This document shows, piece by piece, positions 10,010 through 42,730 of a stretch of 42,730 nt of DNA. The first letter of the stretch is position 1. Every line of letters begins with the position of its first letter. Position numbers and translations under genes: made by a program. This DNA comes from an uncultured Flavobacterium sp. (lineage in GTDB: Bacteria; Bacteroidota; Bacteroidia; Flavobacteriales; Flavobacteriaceae): contig CAJXSU010000010.1 of the NCBI GenBank assembly GCA_913061465.1, forward strand, positions 1 to 42,730, given 5' to 3'. Below the pieces are notes generated by a model that searched no databases, was not told where the DNA came from, and saw nothing but the letters and a program-made list of their open reading frames with translations.

Positions 10010-10032
10010 AGGGTACAGTTGTTCTAGACCAA

Positions 10033-10072
10033 AATGGGGAGTTTAAAATTTCATCATTTAATAGGATTGACA
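10033..10072 (+). repeat. 40-bp duplicated upstream element, copy 1 (contains TTGACA)
   Basis: AATGGGGAGTTTAAAATTTC continues to TTGACA at 10067-10072 and recurs at 10508-10547. A CAATTTTG box, 7 of 8 to the Bacteroidota -7 consensus TAnnTTTG, follows at 10090-10097 with a 17-bp gap. Each copy stands before one of two paralogous small genes, so it is probably a shared promoter region rather than a random repeat. The GGGGAG...AAATT core resembles the intergenic repeats further right. Confidence 0.7.
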
Positions 10073-10119
10073 TGCATCATTATTTTAATCAATTTTGATA
10101 AACGTTAAACAAAAATTCT

Positions 10120-10329: not shown

Positions 10330-10507
10330 GTACTTAAAAAGTAACATACATACCCGGTATGTTGTAGTATTTTTCTATTTCAGGGGTATGTTGGTAGTTT
10401 CATTTTCAAAGCCATAAGAATAAACTCAAATTTTTTTAAGAAGATGCAACTGAACGAAATGCATAAGTTTTTGTGTTTCTTATTATTTTTTATTCCAATA
10501 CATGTTA

Positions 10508-10547
10508 AATGGGGAGTTTAAAATTTCATTATTTAAAGGGATTGACA
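10508..10547 (+). repeat. 40-bp duplicated upstream element, copy 2 (contains TTGACA)
   Basis: Second copy of 10033-10072, with TTGACA at 10542-10547 and CAAATTTG at 10564-10571 (16-bp gap). It stands 46 bp before the intact small gene at 10594 and fits the same promoter layout as copy 1. Confidence 0.7.
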
Positions 10548-10593
10548 AGTTTTAAGTTTTTAGCCAAATTTGTGTAAAGAAAAAAAATAGGTT

Positions 10594-10918: not shown

Positions 10919-11085
10919 TTATTTTTTCCAAGTACCTCCCTAAGTATAAGCAGGATTGTTATCCTTTATACAGGTAAGCAATGCTTACAGACAAACACCC
11001 ACGCTTTAGGATTTTTGTATTGCACTCTATACAGTACAAGGTAATCCTTATCACATTGATTACAGTATTTAATTCGATTTTTCAT
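10919..11085 (-). pseudogene. Broken copy of the 55-aa CxxC/CxxC protein gene at 29502
   Basis: Reading from ATG at 11085 gives MKNRIKYCNQCDKDY, then YRVQYKNPKAWVFVCKHC, closely matching the intact protein at 29502-29669 (26 of the first 36 residues identical, all four Cys kept). After LPV the frame is lost: TAA appears, and a -1 shift restores KDNNPAYT, then TAG where the intact gene has a Tyr codon, then GGTWKK and TAA. One frameshift plus one nonsense change have therefore inactivated the C-terminal third. The N-terminal 39 residues, including both CxxC motifs, could still be translated. Confidence 0.75.
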
Positions 11086-29501: not shown

Positions 29502-29669
29502 CTATTTTTTCCATGTACCTCCGTATTTGTAGTTTGGGTTCTCTTTTTTAAGAGACACTAAGCAATCTTTACATACAAATACCCATTCTTTAGGGTTTTT
29601 ATATTGCACTCTATATAGGGTAGAGAAATCTTCATTACATACCTTACAGTATTTGATTCGTTGTTTCAT
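29502..29669 (-). CDS. 55-aa zinc-ribbon-like CxxC/CxxC protein
   Basis: ATG at 29669, TAG at 29504-29502. The product begins MKQRIKYCKVCNEDFS, contains YRVQYKNPKEWVFVCKDC and ends YKYGGTWKK. Four Cys (C8, C11, C33, C36) in two CxxC knuckles suggest one structural zinc. It is too short for many ORF callers. Coding status is supported by the degenerate homologue at 10919-11085, which preserves all four Cys and the YRVQYKNPK core. It stops 62 bp before the sulfatase start at 29439. Function unknown; a small DNA-, RNA- or protein-binding role is possible. Confidence 0.75.
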   Translation of the reverse strand: MKQRIKYCKVCNEDFSTLYRVQYKNPKEWVFVCKDCLVSLKKENPNYKYGGTWKK

Positions 29670-29814: not shown

Positions 29815-29917
29815 AAAATTATCTAATCACTAAATATAATAAAACGATTTGAACTCTTGTTAAAGAAGTGTAAACAAGAGAAAATTCAACCTTATGCGAT
29901 AGAATTTTAATTTTGGA

Positions 29918-29960
29918 ACCAAGGAGAGTAACATCGAAGTGTTTTTGAGAGGATTTGATT
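29918..29960 (+). repeat. Intergenic repeat family, copy A (diverged)
   Basis: Core ACCAAGGAGAGTAACATCGA then GTGTTTTTGAGAGGATTTGA. Matches the family at AAGGAG, the ATCGAAGTG segment and GAGAGGATTTGATT. It lies between the CxxC gene and the HMA protein gene, about 24 bp beyond the latter's stop. Confidence 0.6.
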
Positions 29961-29984
29961 AAACTTTAGATTATATTTTTTATT

Positions 29985-30698
29985 CTAAACTTTCCATAGC
30001 ATCAAGCACGCCATTACAACCATTGTTAAATTCTCTATGATGGTAATCTTACTCATTGGTAAATTAAAAACTGCTCCCAAACAAGCACATTTAATCTTTC
30101 TCTTGTCTAAGACGCTTTGAATCACTCCAATACTACTAAAGCTCATTAAAAAAATGGTAACTATATAGGTAATTTTAGGCTCAAAATTTGTGAGGTAGGC
30201 AACACCTAGAAATAGTTCAAGAAATGGATAGATAAGCCCATATACTTTTACTCTTTTTGCAAGTACATCATACATGGCATAGCTTTCTGCAAAACCAGCT
30301 AAGTTTAAAAATTTGAAGAATGAAAAAACAATAAAAAAACCAGCCATAAAATAACGCATCCATAGCATTAGATCAATCTTTCCATCATTCATTGAAGCAA
30401 TTGCTGTGGTTGCTGCTATAAATATAAAAATAAGGAGCAGTGGTTTATAGGTTGTTAAAATACGTTTACTTTCTTGAATAGTTGATGGTTCTAAAGGGCC
30501 AACCGTATATTTACTAGACGTGCCAAAAAGGTGTTGTAATTCTTCAATAGATAACTCTTCACTCATGGTTACCGTGGCAGATTTGTTTGGAAGTGCAACA
30601 GAAACAGAAGAAATACTTGCATGTTGTTGAAGTACATAGCTAATTTTAGCCACGCACCCCTCACAAGTCATGCCTTCAATAATGTATGTTTTGGTCAT
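29985..30698 (-). CDS. Heavy-metal-associated domain fused to a MauE/DoxX-like membrane protein
   Basis: 237 residues. The N-terminal 65 residues form an HMA domain with the metal-binding loop GMTCEGC (C12, C15). About four membrane helices follow from residue 88 to the end, with a KCACLG motif (C204, C206) near the last helix, as in MauE-type proteins. HMA domains carry Cu(I), Zn or Hg, and the membrane part resembles proteins implicated in thiol-disulfide or metal handling in the inner membrane. Likely role: metal transfer or sensing coupled to periplasmic redox, by inference. A lipoprotein gene ends 31 bp upstream on the same strand, so they probably form an operon. Confidence 0.82.
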   Translation of the reverse strand: MTKTYIIEGMTCEGCVAKISYVLQQHASISSVSVALPNKSATVTMSEELSIEELQHLFGTSSKYTVGPLEPSTIQESKRILTTYKPLLLIFIFIAATTAIASMNDGKIDLMLWMRYFMAGFFIVFSFFKFLNLAGFAESYAMYDVLAKRVKVYGLIYPFLELFLGVAYLTNFEPKITYIVTIFLMSFSSIGVIQSVLDKRKIKCACLGAVFNLPMSKITIIENLTMVVMACLMLWKV

Positions 30699-30729
30699 GA
30701 TTATCTTAGTATATCTTCTATTGTAATTT

Positions 30730-31137
30730 TTATTGACAATCTGAACTTAATTTCCATAAAATACCACCGTTTTCAAAAACAAGAATACCACCATCACATC
30801 TAAATGCGATAGTTTGGGCTATGCCATCAATGGTTAGAATAAAATCCTCAAACCTATAAGCCTCTGAACCTGGTATTCTATCTAATGCATCTAATGCATT
30901 AAAATCTGAATCAGTACAAGGGGTATTCGTAGTACAGTTTGCATAGGATGTATATCGAGTTCCGTTTTGGAATTCATACATGGTATTTGCATAGGTTCTA
31001 TCATTAGGATCTGGAGACCATAACCATTTACCTTCTACAGAATAGTCAATAGGATCTACCATCCCCAAAATATCTGGAGTATCTTCACAATTAGTAAATG
31101 TAATTGCTGCTAATAGTAGTAAGATTATATTTCTCAT
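30730..31137 (-). CDS. Small lipoprotein, lipocalin-like size, unknown function
   Basis: 135 residues. The signal segment ends TFTNC, a lipobox with Cys17. The body contains GKWLWSPDPNDR, YEFQNGTRYT and GGILVFENGGILWKL, a pattern of short beta strands seen in small Bacteroidota lipoproteins. Four further Cys (near residues 68, 74, 113, 134) may form disulfides. It lies 31 bp upstream of the HMA/MauE-like gene and probably shares its transcript, which suggests a related extracytoplasmic job, but no family was recognised. Confidence 0.7.
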   Translation of the reverse strand: MRNIILLLLAAITFTNCEDTPDILGMVDPIDYSVEGKWLWSPDPNDRTYANTMYEFQNGTRYTSYANCTTNTPCTDSDFNALDALDRIPGSEAYRFEDFILTIDGIAQTIAFRCDGGILVFENGGILWKLSSDCQ

Positions 31138-31163
31138 GATTGTAATTTTTGGTCAAATTTAAA

Positions 31164-31220
31164 AAAAATAATTCAAGGAGTAGCGGGGGAGTGAAATTAA
31201 AGTTTTTGGGGGAAGATTTT
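31164..31220 (+). repeat. Intergenic repeat family, copy B
   Basis: ATAATTCAAGGAGTAG then CGGGGGAGTGAAATTAAAGT and TTTTGGGGGAAGATTT. The first half matches copies E and F almost base for base. It lies in the divergent spacer between the lipoprotein gene and the + strand sulfatase. Confidence 0.75.
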
Positions 31221-31364
31221 TTTTATTTTTAGAAAAAGATATTCTTAAAAATAAAAAGTTATTCTTGGGAATACTATTTTGGATATGCCGAAATTAACCT
31301 TTGGAGCTCAAAACCGCGACACTGAAAGATGAACATTGGTTAGTACAACTAGAAAACATTTTAT

Positions 31365-31372
31365 TAGATTTG
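31365..31372 (+). promoter_or_regulatory. Candidate -7 box TAGATTTG for the + strand sulfatase
   Basis: TAGATTTG fits TAnnTTTG and would give a start site about 15 nt before the ATG at 31394. A second match, TATATTTG at 31379-31386, is too close to the ATG to be useful. TTG at 31336-31338 is somewhat far for a -33 element. Confidence 0.35.
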
Positions 31373-31393
31373 AATGTATATATTTGAAAAATA

Positions 31394-32851
31394 ATGAGAA
31401 AACTACTACTCTTATCTTTTTTTATTTTCTTAAACTGTAAAAATACGGTACCAGATCTCATACCTAAAAAGCCAAACGTTCTCTTGTTTTACATTGATGA
31501 TTTAAGGCCAGAATTAGCAAGTTTTGGAGCTACACATATACAATCGCCAAATATTGACGCCTTGGCATCAAAAGGAATAAAGTTTACAAATGCTTATTGT
31601 AATGTGCCGGTTTGTGGTGCATCTCGAGCCAGTATGTTAACAGGGATGTTGCCAACAAAAAAAAGATTTATAAATTACAACACGTTTGTTGAAAAAGAAA
31701 CTCCTGAGGCAGTTACGCTTCCACAGTTATTCAAAAGTAATGGGTACACCACGATTTCTAACGGAAAAATTTATCATCATTTAGACGATAGAGAAACCGA
31801 TTGGAATGAAGTTTGGCGACCCTATGCATTTGATAAAAATGATTTAGGGTTAGCGCCAACCGATTATTGGCAATCCTTATGGAAAGACTATCAAAACCCT
31901 ACTAATATCTCAAACTATAAAATAACAGATAAAGGTCCTGCTTATGAAAGTGCAGAGGTTTCAGACTTCACACATATAGATGGGTTACTAACGGAGAAAG
32001 TAATCAAAGACATTAAAAAATTAAAAAAGAGTAACAACCCCTTTTTTTTAAGCGCTGGTTTTATCAGCCCTCATTTACCTTTTAATGCACCAAAAAAGTA
32101 TTGGGATTTGTACGATAGAAATACTATTCTGCAACCAGAAAACCATGATGCTATCCCTTTAGATGCTCCAAAGATAAGTATTAGTAGTTGGCCAGAAATG
32201 CGTTCCTATTCTAATATCCCCAAGCGAGGGCAGGTTTCTGATAGTATAGCTATTGATTTAATTCATGGGTATTATGCAACAGTATCTTACACAGATGCTT
32301 TAATTGGTAAAATTTTACATGAGTTAAAAGAGCAAGAATTAGATAAAAATACAGTTGTTATTTTTGTATCTGACCATGGCTATAATCTTCAAGAACATAC
32401 ACAATGGGCAAAGTTTACAAATTATAACACCTCTACTCAGGTGCCTTTAATTATTTACAATCCGTTAACTAAAGCCAAAGGAACAACAAATGCCTTAACA
32501 GCATTAGTAGATATTTATCCTACATTGGCAGAAATTTGTGGGATAGAAATACCAAAGGAACAATTAGACGGAACGAGTTTGGTACCAATTTTAAACAACC
32601 CAAACTTAGAAGGTAAAAAACATGTTTTCATTAAAAAAGGGAACGGATTTACCCTAAAAACAAGAGATTTTAGTTACACAGAATTTATAAAATCGAAAGA
32701 CAATTCAATCATCGCTAGGATGCTTTATGATCATAGAGCAACTAAATTTGAGAATGTAAATATTATTAACCAAAAAGAGTTTAAAAATAAAGTTTCAGAA
32801 TTAAATTTAATTCTACATTCAGAATATCAGAAAAATATTGAAGGCAACTAA
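31394..32851 (+). CDS. Lipoprotein sulfatase, iduronate-2-sulfatase-like, CGASR signature
   Basis: 485 residues. The short signal ends FIFLNC (lipobox Cys15). YIDDLRPELASFG gives the Asp pair (D35, D36), and the signature reads CGASR with Cys74, so Ala replaces the usual Pro. GKIYHHLDDR, SPHLPFNAPKKYWDLYDR and VSDHGYNLQEHTQWAKF strongly resemble iduronate-2-sulfatase (S1_7-like), as for the gene at 14921. Ala is tolerated at that position in the accepted C/S-x-P/A-x-R pattern, so it is probably active. It stands outside the - strand sulfatase cluster, on the opposite strand and flanked by the repeat family, so it may have a separate history. Membrane-anchored periplasmic desulfation is expected. 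Confidence 0.88.
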   Translation: MRKLLLLSFFIFLNCKNTVPDLIPKKPNVLLFYIDDLRPELASFGATHIQSPNIDALASKGIKFTNAYCNVPVCGASRASMLTGMLPTKKRFINYNTFVEKETPEAVTLPQLFKSNGYTTISNGKIYHHLDDRETDWNEVWRPYAFDKNDLGLAPTDYWQSLWKDYQNPTNISNYKITDKGPAYESAEVSDFTHIDGLLTEKVIKDIKKLKKSNNPFFLSAGFISPHLPFNAPKKYWDLYDRNTILQPENHDAIPLDAPKISISSWPEMRSYSNIPKRGQVSDSIAIDLIHGYYATVSYTDALIGKILHELKEQELDKNTVVIFVSDHGYNLQEHTQWAKFTNYNTSTQVPLIIYNPLTKAKGTTNALTALVDIYPTLAEICGIEIPKEQLDGTSLVPILNNPNLEGKKHVFIKKGNGFTLKTRDFSYTEFIKSKDNSIIARMLYDHRATKFENVNIINQKEFKNKVSELNLILHSEYQKNIEGN

Positions 32852-32862
32852 AATTGTTTATT

Positions 32863-32917
32863 ACTTTAATTAAAACCACATATTTAGATATTTCTTTAAT
32901 TTGTTTTGTAAGAGGTA
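32863..32917 (-). pseudogene. Orphan copy of the 3' end of the protease gene at 38878
   Basis: 55 bp identical at 53 positions to 38885-38939, the last codons of the trypsin-like protease. Read on the - strand it encodes PLTKQIKEISKYVVLIKV, identical to the protease C-terminus. Similarity stops abruptly at 32918. At the other end the stop codon is lost, apparently through contraction of a tandem ACTTT. It lies 11 bp after the sulfatase stop, between two unrelated genes. It is a gene fragment left by duplication or recombination. Confidence 0.75.
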
Positions 32918-32982
32918 TGTTTTCGGTCCGGTATTTTATATAAATGTTCTAAATACATTTAGTGTTGCGAGGCAAAACATTG

Positions 32983-34515
32983 TTATGTTGTATCAATTTC
33001 CTTGATCATCTTAACGGCTTCTTCTCTTGGTGGATACAATTTTGAAACCAGAACACCCAAAATCATAGCGACTACAAAAGAAGGGGCAAGTACATCGAGA
33101 GCCACAAAATAGGGCCCTATATTTGGCATTTCTTTTAAAACAAAATTGAAAACTATAACTGAAATAAAACCAGAAATCATGGATGCGATAGCTCCTTTTT
33201 CAGAATAGCCCTTCCAAAAAAGACTGAGAATAACCACTGGGCAAAAGGTGGCAGCGATACCAGACCATCCAAAAATAATGACCCAAAAAATCTGTCTATT
33301 AGGTGATACATAATCCATAATAATTGCAATCAACAAGGCAGAAAATGCCATAATGATGGTAGCAATTCTTGACATTTTTGTGAGATCTTTATCTTTTATT
33401 TTAGGTCTAAATATCTTTTGATAAAAGTCACGAGTAATGGCGCTTGAGGCTAATATTAACAATGAATCAATGGTAGACATAATTGCAGATAATACAATGG
33501 CAATAAATACGGCTACTAATATTGTTGGTAAGAAACTTTCTGTAATCATAGTTAGCACATCTTCACCATTATTACCTAAAATAGCTTCAGGATCTTGTCC
33601 TTCACTTGTAAAGTAGATTCTAGCAAGTATACCAATAGTTACTGCGGCTGCATCTGTAAGTAATGTAAAAAGGACCGCAACCCATTTTCCTTTGTCAATT
33701 TCTTTTTTGTCTTTAATAGACATAAAACGGACATACACTTGCGGAGATCCTAAGAAACCTAATCCAATCATAGAAAACCCTAGAATGGTAAAAAGATTCA
33801 TCCAACCATCAGAACTTCTTCCCATTATGTTTGTTAGCGTTGGATCAATCGCATTTAATCCTGCTGTAACTCCAGCTCCTTGGTCCATAGAAAACCAAAC
33901 TACAATTGGGAGTAAAACAAGGCCAAAAAACATTAAGAGACCTTGAAATAAGTCTGACCAAACGGCAGCAACAAACCCACCAATAAAAATATAAGCTAAG
34001 ACAATAAAGAAGCCGATTAATGCGCCTAGTTTATAATCAATTCCCAGCATCGATCTAAATGCAATACCCGTAACATCAATTTGTGAAGCTACATAAATCA
34101 CTATAAAAATAACTAGAACTGAAGCCGCAATAATTCTAAGTGTGTGCGATGTGGACTTAAAATGACTAGTTAAATAATCTGGAATGGTAATAGCACCATA
34201 TGCATCAGATCTTTTTTTGAAACGTTTTGCCATAAATTGCCAGGAAATAAAAACACCTAATAGTTCTCCTACAACAACCCAATAGCCAGAATATCCTACT
34301 ATTGCACCCATTCCGGTAAGTCCAATCAATAACCAACCAGATTCTCCAGTTGCTCTTGCAGAAAATGCAACTGCCCAAAAACCCATCTTTTTCCCACCTA
34401 CATAATAATCGCTCATACCTTTAATTCGTCTAGATGCGAAAATTCCAATTAAAAATAAAATCCCAACATAAACTGCAAGGACTACTACTTTGATTGTTAA
34501 ATTTGGATCTTGCAT
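32983..34515 (-). CDS. Sodium/solute symporter (SSS family, PutP-like)
   Basis: 510 residues with at least twelve hydrophobic segments. YYVGGKKMGFWAVAFSARAT leads into GESGWLLIGLTGMG, the second-helix region that carries Na+ and substrate ligands in SSS transporters such as PutP. GGFVAAVWSDLFQGLLM and SAIMSTIDSLLILASSAI are further family signatures. Substrate cannot be read: sugars, amino acids and sialic acids are all used in this family. The gene is divergent from the cysteine dioxygenase/decarboxylase pair with a 240-bp shared spacer, and convergent with the sulfatase at 31394. It could therefore import a sulfur amino acid or a desulfated sugar. Both are inference. Confidence 0.9.
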   Translation of the reverse strand: MQDPNLTIKVVVLAVYVGILFLIGIFASRRIKGMSDYYVGGKKMGFWAVAFSARATGESGWLLIGLTGMGAIVGYSGYWVVVGELLGVFISWQFMAKRFKKRSDAYGAITIPDYLTSHFKSTSHTLRIIAASVLVIFIVIYVASQIDVTGIAFRSMLGIDYKLGALIGFFIVLAYIFIGGFVAAVWSDLFQGLLMFFGLVLLPIVVWFSMDQGAGVTAGLNAIDPTLTNIMGRSSDGWMNLFTILGFSMIGLGFLGSPQVYVRFMSIKDKKEIDKGKWVAVLFTLLTDAAAVTIGILARIYFTSEGQDPEAILGNNGEDVLTMITESFLPTILVAVFIAIVLSAIMSTIDSLLILASSAITRDFYQKIFRPKIKDKDLTKMSRIATIIMAFSALLIAIIMDYVSPNRQIFWVIIFGWSGIAATFCPVVILSLFWKGYSEKGAIASMISGFISVIVFNFVLKEMPNIGPYFVALDVLAPSFVVAMILGVLVSKLYPPREEAVKMIKEIDTT

Positions 34516-34670
34516 ATAGCTGAATTGGTGATTGAATTTTGTCTATTTTAAATAAAAATTTTAAAAAAAAACAGGTTTCGTAATATCCCGAAAATTAGTC
34601 ATAATAATAGAATAATCAACTTTTTTTACTTATTATAGTTCAAAATCACTTAGAAACCTTCAAAAATAGC

Positions 34671-34678
34671 TATATTTG
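34671..34678 (+). promoter_or_regulatory. Candidate -7 box TATATTTG for the cysteine dioxygenase operon
   Basis: Exact match to TAnnTTTG, 77 nt before the ATG at 34756, inside the divergent spacer with the symporter gene. No clear -33 TTTG. Confidence 0.45.
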
Positions 34679-34755
34679 TTAAACTCAGATGATTTATTAA
34701 ATCATCTCGATTTATTTATTTAGATTTAGGGAGTGACCTTGGATTTGTACATTAA

Positions 34756-35307
34756 ATGAACAAAAAAAAACCTTTGAATTCCAACGATCACACCACAGAA
34801 ACTCTTCAAACTATAGACGAATTAATTACAGCACTTTCAGAAGGAGAGAGGACGACTTTCAATCACACAATACATTCAATAAAATTTCCAGCTAATACTT
34901 TAGATAATTATAGCTCTTGGTCTAGTGAGTGTTATACAAGAAATTGCATTACTAAAAACGAACGATTTGAATTAATTCTTTTGTGTTGGGAAAAAGGACA
35001 AGTTACTCAAATTCACGATCACGGCGGAGAAGAATGTTGGGTTAAGGTTATTGAAGGTGAATTCAGAGAAAATATTTATAAAGAAGATGCAGCTGGAAAG
35101 CTAAAGATTATAAAATCAGCCATTTCAAAAGCTAATGAAGTAACTTATATGAAAGACTTTATGGGATTTCATTCATTAGAAAACATAGCTAACAAAAGAA
35201 GTATGTCTTTGCATTTGTACGCAAAACCAATATCTAATTGTAATGTTTTTGATGAAAAAACAAAAACTTTTATCAATAAGAATTTAACGTATTGTACGAG
35301 TTTATAA
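34756..35307 (+). CDS. Cysteine dioxygenase
   Basis: 183 residues, a cupin. QIHDHGGEECWVKVIEGEF supplies two iron-binding His (H87, H89) and Cys94, and GFHSLEN supplies the third His (H139). Tyr155 in SLHLYAKP corresponds to the Tyr that forms the Cys-Tyr cofactor with Cys94 in animal cysteine dioxygenase. All known catalytic residues are therefore present. It should oxidise L-cysteine with O2 to cysteine sulfinate in the cytoplasm. The decarboxylase gene starts 27 bp after its stop on the same strand, which strongly suggests a two-step route to hypotaurine. Start chosen at the first ATG, which gives a normal family length. Confidence 0.9.
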   Translation: MNKKKPLNSNDHTTETLQTIDELITALSEGERTTFNHTIHSIKFPANTLDNYSSWSSECYTRNCITKNERFELILLCWEKGQVTQIHDHGGEECWVKVIEGEFRENIYKEDAAGKLKIIKSAISKANEVTYMKDFMGFHSLENIANKRSMSLHLYAKPISNCNVFDEKTKTFINKNLTYCTSL

Positions 35308-35334
35308 TTGGTATTAAAATTTAAAAGAGAAAAA

Positions 35335-36741
35335 ATGTCCAACATATATAATGATATTAATTTATTTAATGAGCTAGTTGAAGTTTTAATTAATGAAGAA
35401 GTAAAAAATCCGGTAGCAGAAAGAATTGATTCAGATAAATTATATGAAACTATAGATTTGTCTTTAAATCAATCTGGGATGATTGATGATGAGTTTAAAT
35501 CAGTCTTGAAAAATGTAATAATTTCTACTCCAAAAACGGCCACAAATTTATTTTTCAATCAACTTTTTGGAGGACGACAAGGAAAAGCAATTTTAGGAGA
35601 TTTATTAGCTGTATTGTTGAATAATAGTATGTATACATACAAAGTTGCAGGTCCGCAAGTGGGTATTGAACAAGAAATTATTAGACAATCTTGCAATTTA
35701 GTTGGTTACGGTTCTAACAGTAACGGTACATTTCCTACGGGCGGTTCTATGAGTAATTATGTGGCATTAATTATGGCTCGTGATGCAAAAGATTCTAATT
35801 GTAGACATAATGGAATGTCAAAACCATTAATCATTTACACATCTAAAGAATCTCATTATTCGAATGCTAAGAATGCAAGTTTTGCCGGAATTGGAAGAAA
35901 TAACATTCGTTATATAAAAGCAGATTTAGAAGGAAGAATGGTTTCTGCTGAATTAGAAGCTCAGATTAAAGAAGATATTAAAAATGGTGGAATTCCAACA
36001 TTTGTAAATGCAACAGCAGGAACAACTGTTTTAGGCGCTTTTGATCCAATTGATGAAATTGCAGTTATCACCGAAAAATATAATATTTGGTTGCACGTTG
36101 ATGGCGCATATTGTGGAAGTGTAATTTTTAGTGATAAATATAAACATCTAATTAAAGGTGTAGAAAGATCAGATTCTTTCAGTTATAATGCACATAAAAT
36201 GTTAGGAACACCATTAACTTGTTCTATTATTTTAGTGAATGACAAAAAGCAAATGCACGAATCTTTTAGTAATGAAGCAGATTATTTATATCAAACTGAT
36301 GGAGATGATTTTAACTTAGGTAAAACTTCTTTTCAGTGCGGAAGAAGAAATGATGCCTTAAAATTTTGGACGCTTTGGAAATCAGTTGGAGCAGAAGGCT
36401 TAGAAAAAATCATAGACCAGCAATTTGAATTGGCTACTGTAGCTCGTGACTATGTCTCAACTCATAAAGATTATACTTTGTACAGTTTTGACGATTCCAT
36501 ATCCATTTGTTTTAACTATAAAAATATCGACCCTATGTTACTGTGTACCACTCTTTATGAGCATCAAATCACGGTTGTAGGCTTTGGTTCTTTTAATGAG
36601 GATACCTTTGTAAGATTGGTAACCATTAACGCAAACAATTCTAAACAAGATATTTTAAACTTTTTTAAAGTACTAGAAGAGTTTGTGGAGAATCACTCAA
36701 CATTGCTGAATGAAAAACTTGTTTTAGGAGCTGAGGTCTAA
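35335..36741 (+). CDS. PLP-dependent group II decarboxylase, probable cysteine sulfinate decarboxylase
   Basis: 468 residues from ATG 35335, preceded by a purine-rich AAAAGAGA. An in-frame TTG at 35308 directly after the upstream stop is less likely. FPTGGSMSNYVALIMARD, NATAGTTVLGAFDPIDEI and WLHVDGAYCGS (PLP-binding Asp) are group II decarboxylase motifs, and Lys288 in NAHKMLGTPL forms the Schiff base. The family includes glutamate, aspartate and cysteine sulfinate decarboxylases, whose specificity is hard to read from sequence. The adjoining cysteine dioxygenase gene makes cysteine sulfinate to hypotaurine the best call. Aspartate to beta-alanine remains possible. A hairpin with a T-run follows at 36794-36820. 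Confidence 0.87.
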   Translation: MSNIYNDINLFNELVEVLINEEVKNPVAERIDSDKLYETIDLSLNQSGMIDDEFKSVLKNVIISTPKTATNLFFNQLFGGRQGKAILGDLLAVLLNNSMYTYKVAGPQVGIEQEIIRQSCNLVGYGSNSNGTFPTGGSMSNYVALIMARDAKDSNCRHNGMSKPLIIYTSKESHYSNAKNASFAGIGRNNIRYIKADLEGRMVSAELEAQIKEDIKNGGIPTFVNATAGTTVLGAFDPIDEIAVITEKYNIWLHVDGAYCGSVIFSDKYKHLIKGVERSDSFSYNAHKMLGTPLTCSIILVNDKKQMHESFSNEADYLYQTDGDDFNLGKTSFQCGRRNDALKFWTLWKSVGAEGLEKIIDQQFELATVARDYVSTHKDYTLYSFDDSISICFNYKNIDPMLLCTTLYEHQITVVGFGSFNEDTFVRLVTINANNSKQDILNFFKVLEEFVENHSTLLNEKLVLGAEV

Positions 36742-36793
36742 CAGAAGACCTATTGTCTGAGTATTAACTAGGCCGAGTTCTTTTGCGGTCATT

Positions 36794-36820
36794 AAGGTAG
36801 ATTATACCCTTGGTTTTTTT
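36794..36820 (+). terminator. Probable terminator of the cysteine dioxygenase/decarboxylase operon
   Basis: AAGGTA pairs with TACCCTT (one bulged C), then GG and seven Ts, 53 nt past the stop. A second weaker hairpin with T-run (GATTA/TAATC, 36975-36988) lies closer to the convergent gene. Confidence 0.4.
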
Positions 36821-36908
36821 ATTAAGCTTGGTCGTAAAATAATCGTACATATTTAAATACTAAAAAACCTCAACTTATTGAAAATTAATATGATGAAGTT
36901 TTTAATCG

Positions 36909-36955
36909 TGGAGCCTAAAGGGAGTGAAATTCAACTATTTTGGAGAGGATTTGAT
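36909..36955 (+). repeat. Intergenic repeat family, copy C
   Basis: TGGAGCCTAAAGGGAGTGAA then ATTCAACTATTTTGGAGAGG and ATTTGAT. Closest to copy F over the AACTATTTTGG...GAGGATTT segment. It lies in the convergent spacer between the decarboxylase and SGNH hydrolase genes. Confidence 0.75.
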
Positions 36956-36995
36956 CTCACTCAGTAAATTATTGGATTAAGAGTAATCTCTTTTT

Positions 36996-37733
36996 TTATT
37001 CCAAAACATTTATAAGAATAGTGTAATATCTATTGGCAATAAATTCAGCACCTGCTTCATTGTAATGTACATCATCAGCTAGCAAATCATCATTAAATCC
37101 TGTAAACATATCCACAGCTATTACAGTTGAGCTGGTTGTTGTTTTATTTACTGCAATATGTATAACCTCTTGCTGCATTTGTGTAAAAAATTCTGTCAGT
37201 TCTGAAGTCATTATATCACTTCTACCGGGAGCCATTTGCTCAAGTATAATTTTGACACTGGGATTGTCGGCTTGAAGAATATCAATTATGTTGTTGATAT
37301 TAGACACTGCTTGTGAATACGGTAATCCTTGAAGCGCATCATTACCCCCAGGCGAACTTAGTAAAACAATATCAGCAGAGCCTGTTTGATTTAGCCAATC
37401 ACCAAGGCCATTTAGTATTTCACCAGATGTCCAACCACCTCTACCTTCATGGTCTTCATCAAAATACATATTATTAAATGTTGGATAAGAAGATTCGTCA
37501 GTTTGAGTTCCGATAAAATCAAAAATCCAATTATTTTCTTTTAAGCTTTTCCAGAGTTCGTATCTATAACTTTCAAATTCAGGCCTAGCCCCTTCAACTC
37601 TTGATGCTCCTAAAGCTAGTATTTTATTTATTGAAGTGCTTTGTGGAGAAAGACTAGAATCATCACCTTTATTACAGGAATTGAAAGTTAATAGTAATAA
37701 GACTATCCCTAATAAATTTATTTTTTGAATCAT
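36996..37733 (-). CDS. SGNH/GDSL-type hydrolase lipoprotein
   Basis: 245 residues. Signal segment ending LTFNSC (lipobox Cys20). Block I reads LALGASRVEG with the likely nucleophile Ser44, so GAS replaces GDS. Block II is near RGGWTSGE (G99/G100), block III is GGNDAL (G130, N131, D132), and block V is DDVHYNEAG (D220, H223). The full Ser-Asp-His set and both oxyanion-hole residues are present. SGNH enzymes remove acetyl or acyl esters from polysaccharides or lipids. Near a sulfatase locus a polysaccharide esterase is plausible but not shown. The gene stands alone, flanked by repeat copies C and D. Confidence 0.82.
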   Translation of the reverse strand: MIQKINLLGIVLLLLTFNSCNKGDDSSLSPQSTSINKILALGASRVEGARPEFESYRYELWKSLKENNWIFDFIGTQTDESSYPTFNNMYFDEDHEGRGGWTSGEILNGLGDWLNQTGSADIVLLSSPGGNDALQGLPYSQAVSNINNIIDILQADNPSVKIILEQMAPGRSDIMTSELTEFFTQMQQEVIHIAVNKTTTSSTVIAVDMFTGFNDDLLADDVHYNEAGAEFIANRYYTILINVLE

Positions 37734-37823
37734 ATAGATCTTATATTTAAATATAGAAAACTATAATTAATCTATTAAGTTTCTAATATTTAATATTAAT
37801 TAAATTTAATAAAAAAATTCTTT

Positions 37824-37846
37824 CCAAGAATAAAAATTATTCTTGG
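37824..37846. promoter_or_regulatory. Perfect inverted repeat CCAAGAATAA / TTATTCTTGG
   Basis: Ten-bp arms with AAA between, in the divergent spacer and immediately left of repeat copy D. No gene ends here and the T-run is absent, so it is more likely a protein-binding or structural element than a terminator. TTATTCTTGG also occurs once near 31261 beside copy B and once near 11326. Confidence 0.45.
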
Positions 37847-37855
37847 TAATAAAAA

Positions 37856-37904
37856 GTGGAGTAGAGGGGAGTGATGTCAGACTATTTTGCGGAGCATTCG
37901 AGTT
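37856..37904 (+). repeat. Intergenic repeat family, copy D (diverged)
   Basis: GTGGAGTAGAGGGGAGTGAT then GTCAGACTATTTTGCGGAGC and ATTCGAG. It keeps GGAGTAG, GGGGAGTGA and ACTATTTTG of the family. Confidence 0.65.
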
Positions 37905-37977
37905 TAATGGGGAGTGGTTGCATTTTGGATCAGAAAACTTCAAAAATTGGGGAGCAGTGCTAAATTATTTAAAGCTA

Positions 37978-37985
37978 TAATTTTG
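37978..37985 (+). promoter_or_regulatory. Candidate -7 box TAATTTTG for the 212-aa lipoprotein gene
   Basis: Exact match to TAnnTTTG, 72 nt before the ATG at 38058. A TTG at 37947-37949 is the nearest -33 candidate, spaced slightly long. Confidence 0.4.
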
Positions 37986-38057
37986 CAGACACCACGATTT
38001 AGTTATTTAAAATTAATATATATTTACAAGTAATCTAACTAACTAAATTATTAAAAT

Positions 38058-38696
38058 ATGAAAAATTTATTTCTATTAATGGCTTTAATATTAGTCACAG
38101 CTTGTCAACAAACAGTTGAACCAACAGCTGAGCCAACAGTTGAATTATCAGCTGAGCCAGCAGGTCCTCACACATCTATAGAATGGAGAGTTTGGGCATA
38201 CAGTACCGCAGCTCCATCATTTATTGCAGCTAACTGCTCAGTAATGGCAATGGACGGTACAATACTTAGAGAAGGAACTAACGGATGGACAGCAATGGCT
38301 GCAAATCCTAGAGGTATGTCTGATCCAGAAAATGGTTGGAAAGATGCTCACGAAGCAATGCCTATGGTTGGAGATGGTCCAGCTATGCAATGGGCAATGG
38401 CTTACATGGGTGGAAAAACACCAAAAATGGATGCAGATGGATGGGCATGGATGTTACACGGAGATATGGGAGAAGACAACACAAAACATCTTGTATTTAA
38501 CAAAGAAGATGCTGTGGAAGGAGAATGGATTGAATCTGGAGCACATTTAATGTTATTCCCTAAAGATCCTGCATCTCTAGATGGTCAAACTACAAACTTT
38601 AATTCTGGAGCACCATATGTAATGTTTAAAGGGACTGGATATGATCATTTAATGATACCTGTAGAAGGGTATTATGATTATCAAGCACCCAAATAG
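38058..38696 (+). CDS. Trp/Met-rich lipoprotein of unknown family
   Basis: 212 residues. The signal ends LVTAC (lipobox Cys16). A short Pro/Glu/Thr repeat linker follows (about residues 20-36, variants of VEPTAEPT). The body is unusually rich in Trp, Met and Gly: IEWRVWAYSTAAPSF, MAMDGTILREGTNGW, DPENGWKDAHEAMPM, DADGWAWMLHGDMGEDNT, HLMLFPKDPASL and PYVMFKGTGYDHLMIPVEGY. I do not recognise the family. The composition is unlike its Lys/Ile-rich neighbours and codon use looks less AT-biased, which hints at transfer. His, Met and Asp clusters could bind metal. It is a monocistronic unit with promoter candidate and terminator, flanked by repeats D and E. Confidence 0.75.
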   Translation: MKNLFLLMALILVTACQQTVEPTAEPTVELSAEPAGPHTSIEWRVWAYSTAAPSFIAANCSVMAMDGTILREGTNGWTAMAANPRGMSDPENGWKDAHEAMPMVGDGPAMQWAMAYMGGKTPKMDADGWAWMLHGDMGEDNTKHLVFNKEDAVEGEWIESGAHLMLFPKDPASLDGQTTNFNSGAPYVMFKGTGYDHLMIPVEGYYDYQAPK

Positions 38697-38722
38697 ACGA
38701 TGCATCAATCAATAAAGATAAA

Positions 38723-38750
38723 CTCACATAATTATTATGTGGGTTTTTTT
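38723..38750 (+). terminator. Rho-independent-type terminator of the 212-aa lipoprotein gene
   Basis: Stem with arms CTCACATAAT and ATTATGTGGG (one G-T pair, 1-nt centre that opens to a larger loop), then seven Ts, 26 nt past the stop codon. Confidence 0.8.
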
Positions 38751-38759
38751 ATTTTAAGA

Positions 38760-38818
38760 AAAAAATAATTCAAGGAGTAGAAGAGGAGAGAAATTGAAGT
38801 GTTTTGGGCTGGGATGGA
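38760..38818 (+). repeat. Intergenic repeat family, copy E
   Basis: AAAAAATAATTCAAGGAGTA then GAAGAGGAGAGAAATTGAAG and TGTTTTGGGCTGGGATGGA. The first 18 bases equal copy F. It lies in the convergent spacer between the lipoprotein terminator and the protease stop. Confidence 0.75.
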
Positions 38819-38877
38819 ATTGTTGCACAAATTAAAAACGCTAACTAAATCTAAATTCTATTTTTTCTATTGATGAA

Positions 38878-40632
38878 TTACTTTACTTTAATTAAAACAA
38901 CATATTTTGATATTTCTTTAATTTGTTTTGTAAGAGGTAAAGATTTAAGTTTAGTACTAGAGGGTAATTCGATACTTTTAGGAAGAACATCTAAAAGATT
39001 TGAAACATAACTTGTTTTAATAGAATAAGCTACATTATCAGCGATATCTTTTTTTAAACCAGATGAATTAATACCTATTAAATTCGCTTGTTCATCAAAC
39101 AATGGACCCCCACTATTTCCTCCTTGAATTGGAGCTGTAATTTGATAGGTTGTAATGTTACCATCAAATCCAGATTTAGAACTAATCATACCATCAGTAA
39201 CTTTAATTTCTTTACCCATAATAGATAAAGCCATTGGATAACCAAAAGCATAAACTTTTGTTCCTACATCACTGCTTCTAAATTTAAAATTATAAGGAGG
39301 TTCATTTACCCCATCAAAATTTCTATCAAATATTTTAAGAACTGCTAAATCATTTGTCTTATCTATTTGAATAACTTCTGCATTTAATTTCTGTAATTCA
39401 TTATCTAACATAAATTCAACCTCGATTTTTTCTGCATCTTTAATCACGTGATGATTAGTAATAATATGTCCAGATTTTGAAATGATAATTCCAGAGCCAT
39501 TTCCTGCCCAGTTGTTATCACTCTTAGGCTTTACTTTGTTTATTGAATTTAATCCAGGATATAACTTTATCATGGTATATTTTCCAAAACTAGCAATAGC
39601 TCCACTTTTCAATTCAATAATTTGACTAATCTCTTGTTTCTTATAATCATTTAACCAAGTTATATTGTAATAATTAGGAACTAATGTTTTTTCAAATATG
39701 GTTCTTATTTCTCCTTTTTTCCAGTTTTCTACATTATACATAAAACCACCAAGTTGGTAGCCATAAAATTTATCGTCACCACCCTCTAGTAAAGCTATTT
39801 TATAGTTCAGATTAGCACTGGTGTTTTTCACGGTATAAACACCTTCTACAATAGGAGTATTATTCTTCTTAAAGTATTGTTTTAAAGAAATTTCATTTAT
39901 ATTATCTACTTCAGAATAAATTTGTCTACCTAAAATTGAGTAAACCTCTCTCTTATTGATAATTTCCTTACCATTATTATAATACCATTTTGCTTTTTTT
40001 CTGTCGGTTCTTTTATCATATTGGGTTACTGAATAACTCTTCCAATTTTTATCGTTTGGCTCAAATACTCCGTACGAATCTTTAATATAATTAATACGCT
40101 TTGAAACTATATCTTCTTGCCAAGAAATATTATATATTATCTCACCTAAATTATTAAAAACAATCTGACTTCCCTCTTTTTTGCCATTATCAAAATTCAA
40201 ATCAAACATTTTTTTACCATTTGGATAAAATTTTTCAATAGACTTGAAATATTTTAAAAGATCGTTACTATTTAAAATGGTGTCAAGATTTACTTTAACA
40301 GCTTTTAAATCTACATAAGATCTGAGTATACCCACTGCTTTGTTAATGTTTGAAAATGAGATGGATCCCTTTTTATTTACTATTTCTGACCAATTAGTTT
40401 TATTGTAGGTTGGATACTTGCCTTTTGCATAGTAATATTTTATCTTGATAAGAGATTGATTTTCAAACACGTATTCTGCATAGTGATAAACATTCTTTCT
40501 TTCTTTTGAAGAAAGTTTATACCTATTTTTTACTTTAATTACATCGAGGTTAGAATCTAATAAACGGTATTTAACTTCTTGTCCAAAAGTTATAAAAGGT
40601 AATAATAGAAAAAATAAATAGTTGATTTTCAT
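38878..40632 (-). CDS. Secreted trypsin-like serine protease (HtrA-like domain) with MORN-like N-terminal region
   Basis: 584 residues with a signal peptide (MKINYLFFLLLPFITFGQ). The N-terminal half contains KFYPNGKKMFDLNFDNGKK and similar NGK...G..VF units like the MORN-variant repeats of YwqK-type proteins. The C-terminal half is a trypsin-like protease: SGIIISKSGHIITNHHVI with catalytic H395, NDLAVLKI with D428 and GGNSGGPL with S507. The triad is complete, but no PDZ domain follows, unlike typical DegP/HtrA. It probably cleaves proteins in the periplasm or outside. A 179-residue secreted protein gene ends 42 bp upstream on the same strand, so the two likely form an operon. Its last 18 codons are duplicated at 32863-32917. 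Confidence 0.85.
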   Translation of the reverse strand: MKINYLFFLLLPFITFGQEVKYRLLDSNLDVIKVKNRYKLSSKERKNVYHYAEYVFENQSLIKIKYYYAKGKYPTYNKTNWSEIVNKKGSISFSNINKAVGILRSYVDLKAVKVNLDTILNSNDLLKYFKSIEKFYPNGKKMFDLNFDNGKKEGSQIVFNNLGEIIYNISWQEDIVSKRINYIKDSYGVFEPNDKNWKSYSVTQYDKRTDRKKAKWYYNNGKEIINKREVYSILGRQIYSEVDNINEISLKQYFKKNNTPIVEGVYTVKNTSANLNYKIALLEGGDDKFYGYQLGGFMYNVENWKKGEIRTIFEKTLVPNYYNITWLNDYKKQEISQIIELKSGAIASFGKYTMIKLYPGLNSINKVKPKSDNNWAGNGSGIIISKSGHIITNHHVIKDAEKIEVEFMLDNELQKLNAEVIQIDKTNDLAVLKIFDRNFDGVNEPPYNFKFRSSDVGTKVYAFGYPMALSIMGKEIKVTDGMISSKSGFDGNITTYQITAPIQGGNSGGPLFDEQANLIGINSSGLKKDIADNVAYSIKTSYVSNLLDVLPKSIELPSSTKLKSLPLTKQIKEISKYVVLIKVK

Positions 40633-40674
40633 TGCTTCAAATGCTTAAAATTTATTTTAGAGTCGTAAAACTAT

Positions 40675-41214
40675 TTATTTGATAATTTTTAATACTTCTA
40701 ATAATCTAGGAATTTTGCTAACTTGTGTTTCAGTCCAGAATGTGTAATTATTAAATTCACTATCATCATAAACGTTCAACTTAATAGTTAACCTCCGTTT
40801 CTTCTCATAAATATAATAAGTGAGAGTCATTTCATTTGCTTTAAAGATAAATTTAGAGGATTTATCCTTAAATTTTAAATCTAAATTTGGAATTACATTT
40901 TTTTCAATAAAATAAATAAATTCATTGATTTCTTCGATACCAATCCATGCTGTTTTAAAAACATCAGGATTTTTTATTTTCATATCTAGTTGAAGTGCTT
41001 CCGTTTTTTTCCCGTTTTTTAAATCTATAACTTCAATGGGGTAAAACTCAACAGTTTCACCTATACCTGATTTAAATTCAGCTATTGTTGTCCAATCTTT
41101 ATTAATTCTTGTAAACTGGGTACCATCAATAAATTTTCGAGTGGAAGATTGAATATTTTGCCCAAACGATAACGATGTTAGCAATAAGAGTAGATATAGT
41201 AATAAGTTTTTCAT
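40675..41214 (-). CDS. Secreted protein of unknown function
   Basis: 179 residues with a signal peptide (MKNLLLYLLLLLTSLSFGQ). The body mixes beta and alpha elements (FKSGIGETVEFYPIEVIDL, EEINEFIYFIEKNVIPNLDL, MTLTYYIYEKKRRLTIKL) and has no recognised catalytic motif. It is upstream of the protease by 42 bp on the same strand, so an inhibitor, substrate or partner of the protease is possible but unsupported. Confidence 0.7.
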   Translation of the reverse strand: MKNLLLYLLLLLTSLSFGQNIQSSTRKFIDGTQFTRINKDWTTIAEFKSGIGETVEFYPIEVIDLKNGKKTEALQLDMKIKNPDVFKTAWIGIEEINEFIYFIEKNVIPNLDLKFKDKSSKFIFKANEMTLTYYIYEKKRRLTIKLNVYDDSEFNNYTFWTETQVSKIPRLLEVLKIIK

Positions 41215-41255
41215 TAAGATTTTTTTAATTCATTTTTTATATGCTAAATTTAATA

Positions 41256-41311
41256 AAAAATAATTCAAGGAGCCAAAGGGAGCAAAGTCGAACTATTTTG
41301 GCGAGGATTTA
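41256..41311 (+). repeat. Intergenic repeat family, copy F
   Basis: AAAAATAATTCAAGGAGCCA then AAGGGAGCAAAGTCGAACTA and TTTTGGCGAGGATTTA. Taken as the best full-length example. It lies in the divergent spacer between the 179-aa and 419-aa genes. Confidence 0.8.
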
Positions 41312-41419
41312 TTGGAATTTAATAACTCTCTATGAATCTCTTAACAATAGATGTCTAAAGTTTTAAAATAACTCTTAATTTATTTTTTTAAATTACGTTT
41401 AGTTTAAAAAATTTTAAAA

Positions 41420-42679
41420 ATGAAAAAATATTTATTTTTTTTGTTAATACCTTATTTTGTATTAGCTCAAAACACAAATGATTATATAAGAAGTTCTATT
41501 CATCTTCACCTAATTGATGACTTTGAGTTTGAGAATGGAGATTACGTACTAAAGTCTTATCAAAAATTTTATAATTTTCACTTTCCTGAGAATTATAATA
41601 ATCATTCTATTGATGTAAACAAAGTAACTTTAGACAATTGGAAATTAACTGAAAAAGAATTGGTTGCAAATAACATGAAGAGGTCTGGTCTTTTTGAGGG
41701 ATTAGAAAACTCGCTCAATGAAAAAACATCAGGATTTATAGATTTAAGAACTGATCCGGCTTTAGTTAAATTAAAGCTTGATAAATTTATATCCGAAAAA
41801 AAAATAGCTCATAAATTAGTTAAAAAATGGTTCAATATTAAAGATGATGGGCTATTTAATACTAGTTATATCACAATGAAAACCATTGAGAATGAGACAG
41901 CAAAATCTGCAGCTTTAAACACCGCTCAAGATTTAGAAACGGATGTTACAAATAGACTTATTTCCAATACTTTCGTGGTTTTCACTAAATTAAAATATAT
42001 TAAAAATGAAGTATTAGCAGAAGCTGTAAGAAAATTAGCGCTTTCAAAAATTAAGAAGATGAAAGAGGGAATATTAAAAGAGCTAGCGGTAGGGTCTGCT
42101 GAAGCTTTGTATTTAACTATGAAAGATGGATATTCTGTTATAGCAGATGCTTGGTTGTATCAATTAGAATGGAGTCAGGCAAATTTAGAGGATCTAACGT
42201 CTACATTTGATCTTGTAGACGGTTTTACAAAAATTAATTTTGAAAAATTTGATAAAATTAACTTTAATTTAAAATTTTTGAGTAACGACAAAGCAATGAC
42301 ACTTCTTGCAATATCCGATAAAAAAGAAACAGAAATAAATCAGGAAGATGTGTATGATACTTCTACTATTAAAAGTATGAATCAGGTACTTTTTGAACTT
42401 CAGAAGGATAATGATGTATTTAAACCGCTATTTCCACTTAGAGATGGGTTTGCTATAGCTTCTGGAACTAAAGAGGGACTCACAGGGGGTGAAATATTTG
42501 ATGTATTAGAAATAAAAGCTGGTGAATACGTGAGTATTGGTACAATGAAGATCGATAAAAATAGATTGTGGAATAATTCTTTTGAGCCAGGTAAAGATAT
42601 AAAACCAGATTTCACATATTTCAAAAAAGGCAAGAAGAAGTTTGTTCCCGGAATACACTATGTTAGATTTAAAAAGTAA
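41420..42679 (+). CDS. Secreted protein of unknown function
   Basis: 419 residues with a signal peptide (MKKYLFFLLIPYFVLAQ). The central part looks helical (KNEVLAEAVRKLALSKIKKM, KELAVGSAEALYLTMKDGYS). The C-terminal part has short beta segments (PLRDGFAIASGTKEGLTGGE, GIHYVRFKK). No motif that I recognise. It is transcribed alone, divergent from the 179-aa/protease pair and bounded by repeats F and G. Confidence 0.72.
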   Translation: MKKYLFFLLIPYFVLAQNTNDYIRSSIHLHLIDDFEFENGDYVLKSYQKFYNFHFPENYNNHSIDVNKVTLDNWKLTEKELVANNMKRSGLFEGLENSLNEKTSGFIDLRTDPALVKLKLDKFISEKKIAHKLVKKWFNIKDDGLFNTSYITMKTIENETAKSAALNTAQDLETDVTNRLISNTFVVFTKLKYIKNEVLAEAVRKLALSKIKKMKEGILKELAVGSAEALYLTMKDGYSVIADAWLYQLEWSQANLEDLTSTFDLVDGFTKINFEKFDKINFNLKFLSNDKAMTLLAISDKKETEINQEDVYDTSTIKSMNQVLFELQKDNDVFKPLFPLRDGFAIASGTKEGLTGGEIFDVLEIKAGEYVSIGTMKIDKNRLWNNSFEPGKDIKPDFTYFKKGKKKFVPGIHYVRFKK

Positions 42680-42712
42680 TCTATAAACATATGCAACAAA
42701 AGATATTTTTTT

Positions 42713-42730
42713 AAAAATAATTTAAGGAGC
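42713..42730 (+). repeat. Intergenic repeat family, copy G (cut by window end)
   Basis: AAAAATAATTTAAGGAGC matches the first 18 bases of copy F with one change and runs off the window. It begins 33 nt after the stop of the 419-aa gene. Confidence 0.65.

Follow-up and report, generated by a model that had tools for sequence, protein, structure and literature searches.

The window analysed here, 42,730 bp in length, is an entire contig (CAJXSU010000010.1, referred to as C10) of an uncultured Flavobacterium sp. genome (G000; GCA_913061465.1), which is assembled to 2.35 Mb in 123 contigs and is 84% complete. Between 29.9 and 42.7 kb it contains a ∼45-bp element, present as six full copies and one truncated by the contig end, all on the plus strand. 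An earlier, sequence-only reading had listed seven like copies in this orientation, and profile searches bear this out: with leave-one-out nhmmer, a profile of the other five recovers each full copy at 12.6–34.6 bits, compared to only 7.8–9.2 bits for the top match in 50 dinucleotide shuffles of the window. The sequence pattern it proposed was also right, with a core that in the window is AAGGAG in four of the seven copies, GTGGAG in two and TGGAA in one, and that in other genomes is mostly GTGGAG. The copies are hereafter referred to as attachment-type (att-type) repeats, and the intervals between them as cassettes.

The outermost repeat (29907–29960, plus strand, core TGGAA, profile E 1.3e-11) is followed by cassette 1 (29961–31167), encoding an HMA-MauE fusion (29985–30698, minus strand) and a 135-aa lipoprotein-like open reading frame (ORF; 30730–31137, minus). 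After repeat 2 (31168–31223, plus, AAGGAG, E 1.2e-11), a degenerate relic of the mini-element hairpin, recognized by eye, extends to about 31290. Cassette 2 (31224–36901) is possibly several cassettes whose repeats were lost; it includes a sulfatase (31394–32851, plus), a sodium:solute symporter (32983–34515, minus), a cysteine dioxygenase (34756–35307, plus) and a pyridoxal phosphate (PLP)-dependent decarboxylase (35308–36741, plus), a cargo (31394–36741) that hints at a taurine or cysteine-sulfinate pathway. An orphan piece after this sulfatase (32861–32917) is 96% identical over 57 bp to the 3′ end of a trypsin-like protease gene located further along (38883–38939), and is perhaps the relic of a lost cassette. 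Repeat 3 (36902–36955, plus, GTGGAG, E 6.1e-14) leads to cassette 3 (36956–37848), with a lipoprotein-like GDSL/SGNH hydrolase (36996–37733, minus), and repeat 4 (37849–37903, plus, GTGGAG), preceded by a hairpin resembling that found before ssrA in a Polaribacter genome described below (G022), to cassette 4 (37904–38764), encoding a 212-aa lipoprotein-like protein without Pfam match (38058–38696, plus). Cassette 5 (38821–41259), between repeat 5 (38765–38820, plus, AAGGAG, E 7.5e-11) and repeat 6 (41260–41312, plus, AAGGAG, E 5.6e-13), contains the trypsin-like protease (38878–40632, minus) and a 179-aa ORF (40675–41214, minus). Cassette 6 (41313–42712) consists of a 419-aa ORF without Pfam match (41420–42679, plus), and is closed by the truncated repeat 7 (42713–42730, plus, AAGGAG). 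Since the window is the whole contig, the array probably continues beyond 42730.

The best match in the same genome outside the window copies has an E-value of 0.155, and the repeat cluster is therefore local to C10; own-genome copies, confined to this contig, do not show the dispersal of miniature inverted-repeat transposable elements (MITEs) or repetitive extragenic palindromic (REP) elements. A profile scan of related Flavobacteriia, as the sequence-only reading had advised, found copies in many marine members. A first profile, built from sequence only, detected strong copies in congeners with small genomes and flagged 19 of 147 genomes; matches at E 0.001–0.01 were left aside, except for G047, which a later model found again. 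With the improved model, 22 of the 166 genomes examined in the genus have repeats at E ≤ 1e-4. In genomes of the same order, matches were seen only at E 0.003–0.01, and are regarded as chance. An exact-pattern scan of GTDB representatives returned 75 stretches, including records named Polaribacter, Winogradskyella, Lacinutrix and Ulvibacter, as well as some isolates named like single-cell genomes; Rhodobacteraceae and Chitinophaga records among the matches may be misbinned contigs. Carriage by phages or plasmids was considered and rejected, with no match for the repeat pattern in viral_contigs, and none for the mini-element in plasmids and phages.

The one-contig metagenome-assembled genome OX044355 (G022, uncultured Polaribacter) illustrates where such arrays are found. 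Its array ends against the 3′ end of ssrA, the gene for transfer-messenger RNA (tmRNA), reading ...TTATTCTTGGGAATAAAAAGTGGAGACGCCGAGAATCGAACTC; a typical repeat (L059) reads ...TTATTCTTGGGAATAAAAAGTGGAGCAGAGGGGAGTGAAGTCGAACTATTTTGG. The hairpin preceding the core is taken as a terminator of ssrA. I located ssrA in 18 of the 22 genus repeat genomes, and among 32 other genomes with repeats in 19. In 16 genomes a copy and ssrA share a contig and lie within ∼115 kb of each other; in all but one of these, the copies occupy the strand opposite to ssrA, downstream of it (15 genomes, 36 copies; G022, G029, G061, G070, G072, G183, G205, G208, G225, G226, G233, G239, G244, G255 and G256), and in G208 nine copies within 50 kb are all in line. 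Arrays of fitting polarity are also found downstream of tRNA genes, namely tRNA-Ala(GGC) in CALSRG01 and G183:C54, tRNA-Met(CAT) in CANNCM01 and tRNA-Val in JAQCJC52. In the genome of the window, ssrA is at C24:2014–2408, on a contig that begins within a recombinase element, and it is there that the window array would dock.

The conserved stretch in 127 distinct copies extends from −1 to ∼+43 relative to the core and starts with G(−1)TGGAG; GGAG itself was a requirement of the script. A copy resembles a displaced boundary of a tRNA or tmRNA gene (tDNA), with the former ssrA neighbour to the left of GTGGAG and a conserved arm of ∼40 bp to the right. In 53 of 152 copies, located on 35 contigs, the left 400 bp match the ssrA flank of another genome and the homology ends at the boundary; for 22 of these copies the match covers ≥100 bp. 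None of 147 right flanks matches ssrA flanks in either orientation; random 400-mers do so in 4 of 930 cases. The clearest displaced flank is that of the far end in G029, which matches the G205 ssrA site at 96.4% over 495 bp and is separated from its own ssrA by 49 kb. Similarly, the far-end flank in G070 is a 2-oxoglutarate (2OG)-oxygenase gene that in G047 adjoins ssrA (75.6% over 468 bp); this match stops about 30 bp before the core, because the terminators differ. As a separate observation, in G153:C13 (L278, L279) ssrA and a recombinase remnant lie 2.28 Mb from a repeat that has on its left a sequence similar to what normally adjoins ssrA, suggesting a large rearrangement.

The right half of the site offers a further clue. 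The motif TCGAACT is found at +20 in the arm and at +15 in ssrA, a 5-bp shift restricted to this half, and TCGAAC lies fifteen bases past the discriminator position in ssrA and in most tRNA genes examined. A shared 7-mer at exactly +5 occurs in 13 of 20,000 shuffled arms. In the Listeria A118 integrase (PMC3783163), the zinc-ribbon motif is at positions 16–24 of the phage attachment site (attP) and 11–19 of the bacterial one (attB), also a 5-bp shift; the rule drawn from it, an attP motif 5 bp farther from the crossover than that of attB, describes the right half. The crossover is taken as lying within GTGGAG, and the site anatomy fits large serine recombinases.

Such an enzyme is encoded beside ssrA, and the large serine recombinase P0001 is most likely the enzyme of the arrays. 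P0001 (G051) and its G070 copy possess the Resolvase, Recombinase and zinc-ribbon domains that characterize large-serine-recombinase elements, and in P0001 residues 177–420 have a match to 4kis, a chain of the A118 integrase (E 1.2e-6). The best NCBIfam model is SCCmet_CcrB (E 9.1e-31), with 107 bits against a cut-off of 900; the CcrC model reaches 43 bits, with the same cut-off of 900. The genome of the window has a 97% identical gene beside ssrA (C24:504–2081), not on the window contig. In total, P0001 genes are found at ssrA in 12 genomes: five are full and overlap the ssrA 3′ end (G000, G051, G070, G225, G226), and seven are partial, being cut by a contig end (G235, G243, G251), truncated (G061) or remnants (G029, G153, G252). 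Both a repeat and a recombinase remnant at ssrA are present in Winogradskyella sp. KYW1333. Among the genus genomes, 6 of the 22 with repeats have a homologue at ≥70% identity, compared to none of the other 144 (Fisher p 2.8e-6, which overstates independence as the genomes are related). Three elements span ssrA to an arm-type repeat with no intervening repeat (14,327 bp in G070, ∼10.0 kb in G226 and ∼13.6 kb in G225), and all encode P0001 at the ssrA edge. In G226 a paralogue of 62% identity abuts tRNA-Met(CAT), and a second copy in G235 abuts an apparent tRNA-Ala(GGC), its anticodon read by eye. Among the best 120 of 1,839 matches, Winogradskyella haliclonae and Patiriisocius marinus appear by name, with homologues of ∼60% identity; all P0001 matches in the phage and plasmid sets are below 60% identity, the records at E ≤ 1e-20 numbering 12 for phages and 4 for plasmids. 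The cargo of P0001 elements (L110, L062, L103) varies, with an apparent DNA methyltransferase and its neighbour in G051, and an HD-domain protein and Holliday-junction-endonuclease-like proteins in G070.

I therefore propose that the repeats are, very probably, hybrid att sites at the far ends of elements inserted by site-specific recombination at the 3′ ends of ssrA and tRNA genes. The target would be organized as terminator, GTGGAG and the rest of ssrA, with tRNA genes used more rarely. Upon insertion, the far end would become the old terminator followed by GTGGAG and the conserved ∼40-bp element arm, and the near end the element's own terminator followed by GTGGAG and ssrA, so that the ssrA end is kept and its terminator replaced. 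New insertions at the same site would displace older elements outwards, and successive insertion would therefore produce rows with one repeat per boundary, in a single orientation irrespective of gene strands. Anatomy, polarity, displaced ssrA flanks and breakpoints are read directly from sequence comparison; a P0001-type enzyme beside ssrA would be responsible, catalysing attP × attB recombination with the arm as attP half-site and ssrA as attB.

I next surveyed the units between repeats, using 76 contigs with 154 copies and neighbouring pairs within 20 kb; the nhmmer survey missed the window copies at 31168 and 38765 and the truncated one, which were added by hand for the ORF, cassette and flank comparisons. 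Neighbouring copies are co-oriented in all 71 pairs. Their spacing is 81–102 bp in 19 pairs (exactly 101 bp in 12), 146–578 bp in 5, 0.6–3 kb in 31 and 3–8.4 kb in 16, such that gene-less, or blank, units of ∼101 bp exist, also in tandem. The 50 gene-sized intervals hold 96 mechanically called ORFs of at least 80 aa, with one ORF in 25 intervals, two in 14 and three to six in 11. These point with the repeat in 46 cases and against it in 50, and window repeats have neighbours on both strands; the sequence-only reading had stated that gene orientation does not set repeat orientation. Of the 96 cassette ORFs, 95 were scanned for Resolvase and 93 for Phage_integrase (E ≤ 1e-4), and neither domain was seen, as judged from the 25 commonest Pfam families, among which a two-member family would appear; Phage_integrase stayed below two members even with a positive control added.

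Comparison of copies between genomes indicates that these are joints where units are exchanged. Homology of ≥150 bp was found on the right side in 65 pairs of copies and on the left in 40, from 44 and 21 genome pairs respectively and so not all independent, and on both sides in none; 101 of these 105 pairs could be tested on the opposite side, and all 101 are unrelated there at ≥150 bp. For 26 right and 17 left flanks, some 97–99.5% identical, the alignment stops no more than 10 bp from the repeat in either genome. These near-identical copies in new contexts suggest that some units perhaps moved in trans recently. Cassette 3 of the window (36956–37848) has a counterpart in another genome (CAJWNW010000048), 92.7% identical over 796 bp, that is likewise enclosed by two repeats and has unrelated neighbours on both sides, and a 52% identical homologue of the cassette 5 protease is the sole ORF between two repeats in G051:C32. 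The proposal of the sequence-only reading that the repeats are boundaries of exchangeable gene cassettes is accordingly well supported, with homology ending at the repeats. Internal deletion or replacement giving non-autonomous, recombinase-free units is hinted at by a 1.39-kb unit between repeats in CANNCM010000001 (L249), which retains both ends of the G070 element (left 336 bp, 88.7%; right 196 bp, 89.8%), and by a one-gene insert in G072 that keeps a 79-bp piece (89.9%) of the recombinase end. Recombinase-free cassettes would either have moved in trans or be remnants.

A number of observations weigh against insertion by P0001 at tDNA ends. The left half-site is conserved only as a terminator-like pattern (A-run, C-cluster and G-cluster; 127 copies), without a clear motif of the TCGAACT kind, and when any shared 7-mer is allowed 588 of 20,000 shuffled arms have one. 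Of the left-flank boundary matches, 31 of 53 are shorter than 100 bp, and many share one recurring hairpin; likewise, 2 of the 101 flank pairs have a short match on the opposite side, of 47 and 93 bp. A repeat near ssrA in G229 has the wrong polarity, the one such case among the 16 linked genomes, copies lie far from ssrA on the same contig in G153 and G173, as do 2 of the 5 copies in G022, and 5 of 9 tRNA genes on repeat contigs do not fit the polarity. Full P0001 genes are at ssrA in only five genomes, and P0001 copies are also present away from it (G235:C6, and a remnant in G061:C5). As for the window itself, its dock is not visible, as the C10 contig breaks off within a repeat and C24 begins within a recombinase element, and AAGGAG, the core of four of its seven copies, would alter the tmRNA discriminator base if placed at ssrA. 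These four copies share the left side AATAATT(C/T)AAGGAG, unlike most relatives, and a divergent recombinase or another tDNA may therefore lie behind this array.

Could the arrays instead have been built by a tDNA-targeting tyrosine integrase, P0001 elements merely sharing the hotspot? A tyrosine integrase gene does lie beside ssrA in G003 (L120), so that ssrA is also used by such elements, and in G018 (L064) a 13-bp ssrA 3′ fragment, identified by eye, adjoins a repeat unit; both suggest that unrelated integrases use the same hotspot. However, it is P0001 that the three ssrA-to-repeat elements encode at their ssrA edge, and whose element ends the 1.39-kb unit preserves on both sides, no Phage_integrase domain was found in the 93 of 96 ORFs scanned, and the repeat and ssrA have only GTGGAG in common, which is little for a tDNA tyrosine integrase. 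This explanation is unlikely. A different possibility, which refines insertion by P0001 rather than excluding it, is an integron-like system in which cassettes routinely move in trans, cut out and reinserted by a resident serine recombinase, the arrays being a working library. The prevalence of intervals with one or two ORFs, the absence of Resolvase domains from the 95 of 96 ORFs scanned, the flanks of 97–99.5% identity in differing contexts and the tandem blank units all speak for it, but a full P0001-like gene is at the site in few array genomes, and the P0001-element pieces in the L249 unit and the G072 insert indicate that some "cassettes" are decayed autonomous elements. I consider this refinement about evenly balanced.

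That the repeats are an intergenic RNA, a terminator, a protein-binding element or another kind of MITE is very improbable. The copies are intergenic, and some have hairpins just upstream, but no window copy matches Rfam up to E 1, and RNA folding, which the sequence-only reading had recommended, places no copy clearly above its shuffles (6 copies, z −1.30 to 1.24); an RNA element was rejected on these grounds. There is also no relation to gene strand, and homology ends at the copies. When the bottom strand of 8 copies was folded as DNA, three (window 37849, L049 and L059) beat nearly all shuffles and the other five did not, the signal in these three being the upstream terminator-like hairpin, not the arm. 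A coding sequence within the arm was dropped after equivocal frame statistics, and a tRNA gene within the repeat was rejected because ARAGORN finds none in the window. The earlier idea of a miniature element with insertion polarity is only partly right, in that a ∼101-bp gene-less unit exists. Its alternative of a replication-strand-linked motif fixing the orientation drew on the window copies all being on one strand; however, polarity follows the docking tDNA gene instead, and the copies are few and clustered, not genome-wide (replichores were not mapped), which leaves it a negligible probability. Overall, the interpretation given by the sequence-only reading is partly supported.

Its further statement that no copies lie across the sulfatase cluster of the window stands, the all-copy profile giving no significant match there (best E 0.32, minus strand). 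In contrast, the elements at 10033 and 10508, suggested to be distant relatives, have no profile match at E ≤ 10, nor at E ≤ 20; an 81-bp direct repeat (10032–10112 and 10507–10587, 75% identical) is found at this location, unrelated to the att-type repeats. Two sequences related to each other (10975–11085 and 29559–29669, 78%), each apparently a small cysteine-rich ORF, stand one on each side of the sulfatase cluster, and a similar ORF was found near a repeat in G070:C5.

Several known systems resemble these arrays. Integrons, and the integron-integrase-less clusters of attC sites known as CALIN, are rows of small gene units with co-oriented sites, one per unit, and units without recombinase. 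The flavobacterial arrays share all of these features, but the arm appears to show no attC-like fold in the 8 copies folded as DNA, genes point both ways about equally, the dock is a tmRNA or tRNA gene, and the enzyme is most likely a serine recombinase. The system is integron-like in working but is not classed as an integron, its arm apparently lacking an attC-like fold (no IntI search was made). Tycheposons of marine cyanobacteria are likewise marine, tDNA-docked and cargo-carrying, but are larger and use a tyrosine recombinase. Closer are the staphylococcal cassette chromosome (SCC) elements, in which Ccr large serine recombinases act at the rlmH 3′ end, with tandem composites and some elements lacking a recombinase. 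The arrays are alike in having a conserved gene with a large serine recombinase at its 3′ end, composites in tandem and recombinase-free elements; the differences are that P0001, well below the model cut-off, is not a CcrB, that the dock is ssrA or a tRNA gene and not rlmH, and that the units are mostly smaller.

Together with SCC, the nearest known systems are the ssrA islands of Dehalococcoides (McMurdie et al., 2011). That report (PMC3146451) describes tandem islands beyond the ssrA 3′ end that are each delimited by a direct repeat, with a 540-aa serine recombinase, the CcrB homologue DsiB, at the ssrA edge; it also describes a 20-bp ssrA 3′ repeat, a T-loop insertion and a six-gene integration module, missing from 15 of 31 islands. 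Tandem elements downstream of ssrA with directly repeated sites are common to both, from the 15 of 16 linked genomes and the 71 co-oriented pairs, the dock of the window itself being unseen. Unlike what is described there, the flavobacterial arrays have neither the ∼20-bp duplicated ssrA end nor the T-loop insertion, their core being only GTGGAG at the very 3′ end, and they possess a ∼40-bp arm, units of mostly one or two genes and ∼101-bp blanks, occur in many Flavobacteriia, and use tRNA genes too. What is new relative to the known systems is the miniature cassettes, the blank units and the exchange between species; a search of the open PMC literature found no paper on ssrA arrays in Flavobacteriia.

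There is about an even chance that these arrays constitute a gene-capture platform of marine flavobacteria, using a serine recombinase instead of an integron integrase and docking at tmRNA and tRNA genes, in which units of one or two genes or ∼101 bp, with a shared 40-bp half-site and a replacement terminator, would be shuffled in trans between species by a resident or visiting recombinase. The att-site interpretation would make of the odd spacers a record from which gene gain in ocean bacteria can be read, and the repeat would allow finding unit boundaries, cargo (such as secreted proteins, sulfatases and lipoprotein-like genes) and order of arrival. The repeats may also account for assembly breaks in several of these genomes. 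The system would further yield pairs of recombinases and sites docking at tDNA ends, and raises the question of whether integron-like cassette rows evolved more than once.

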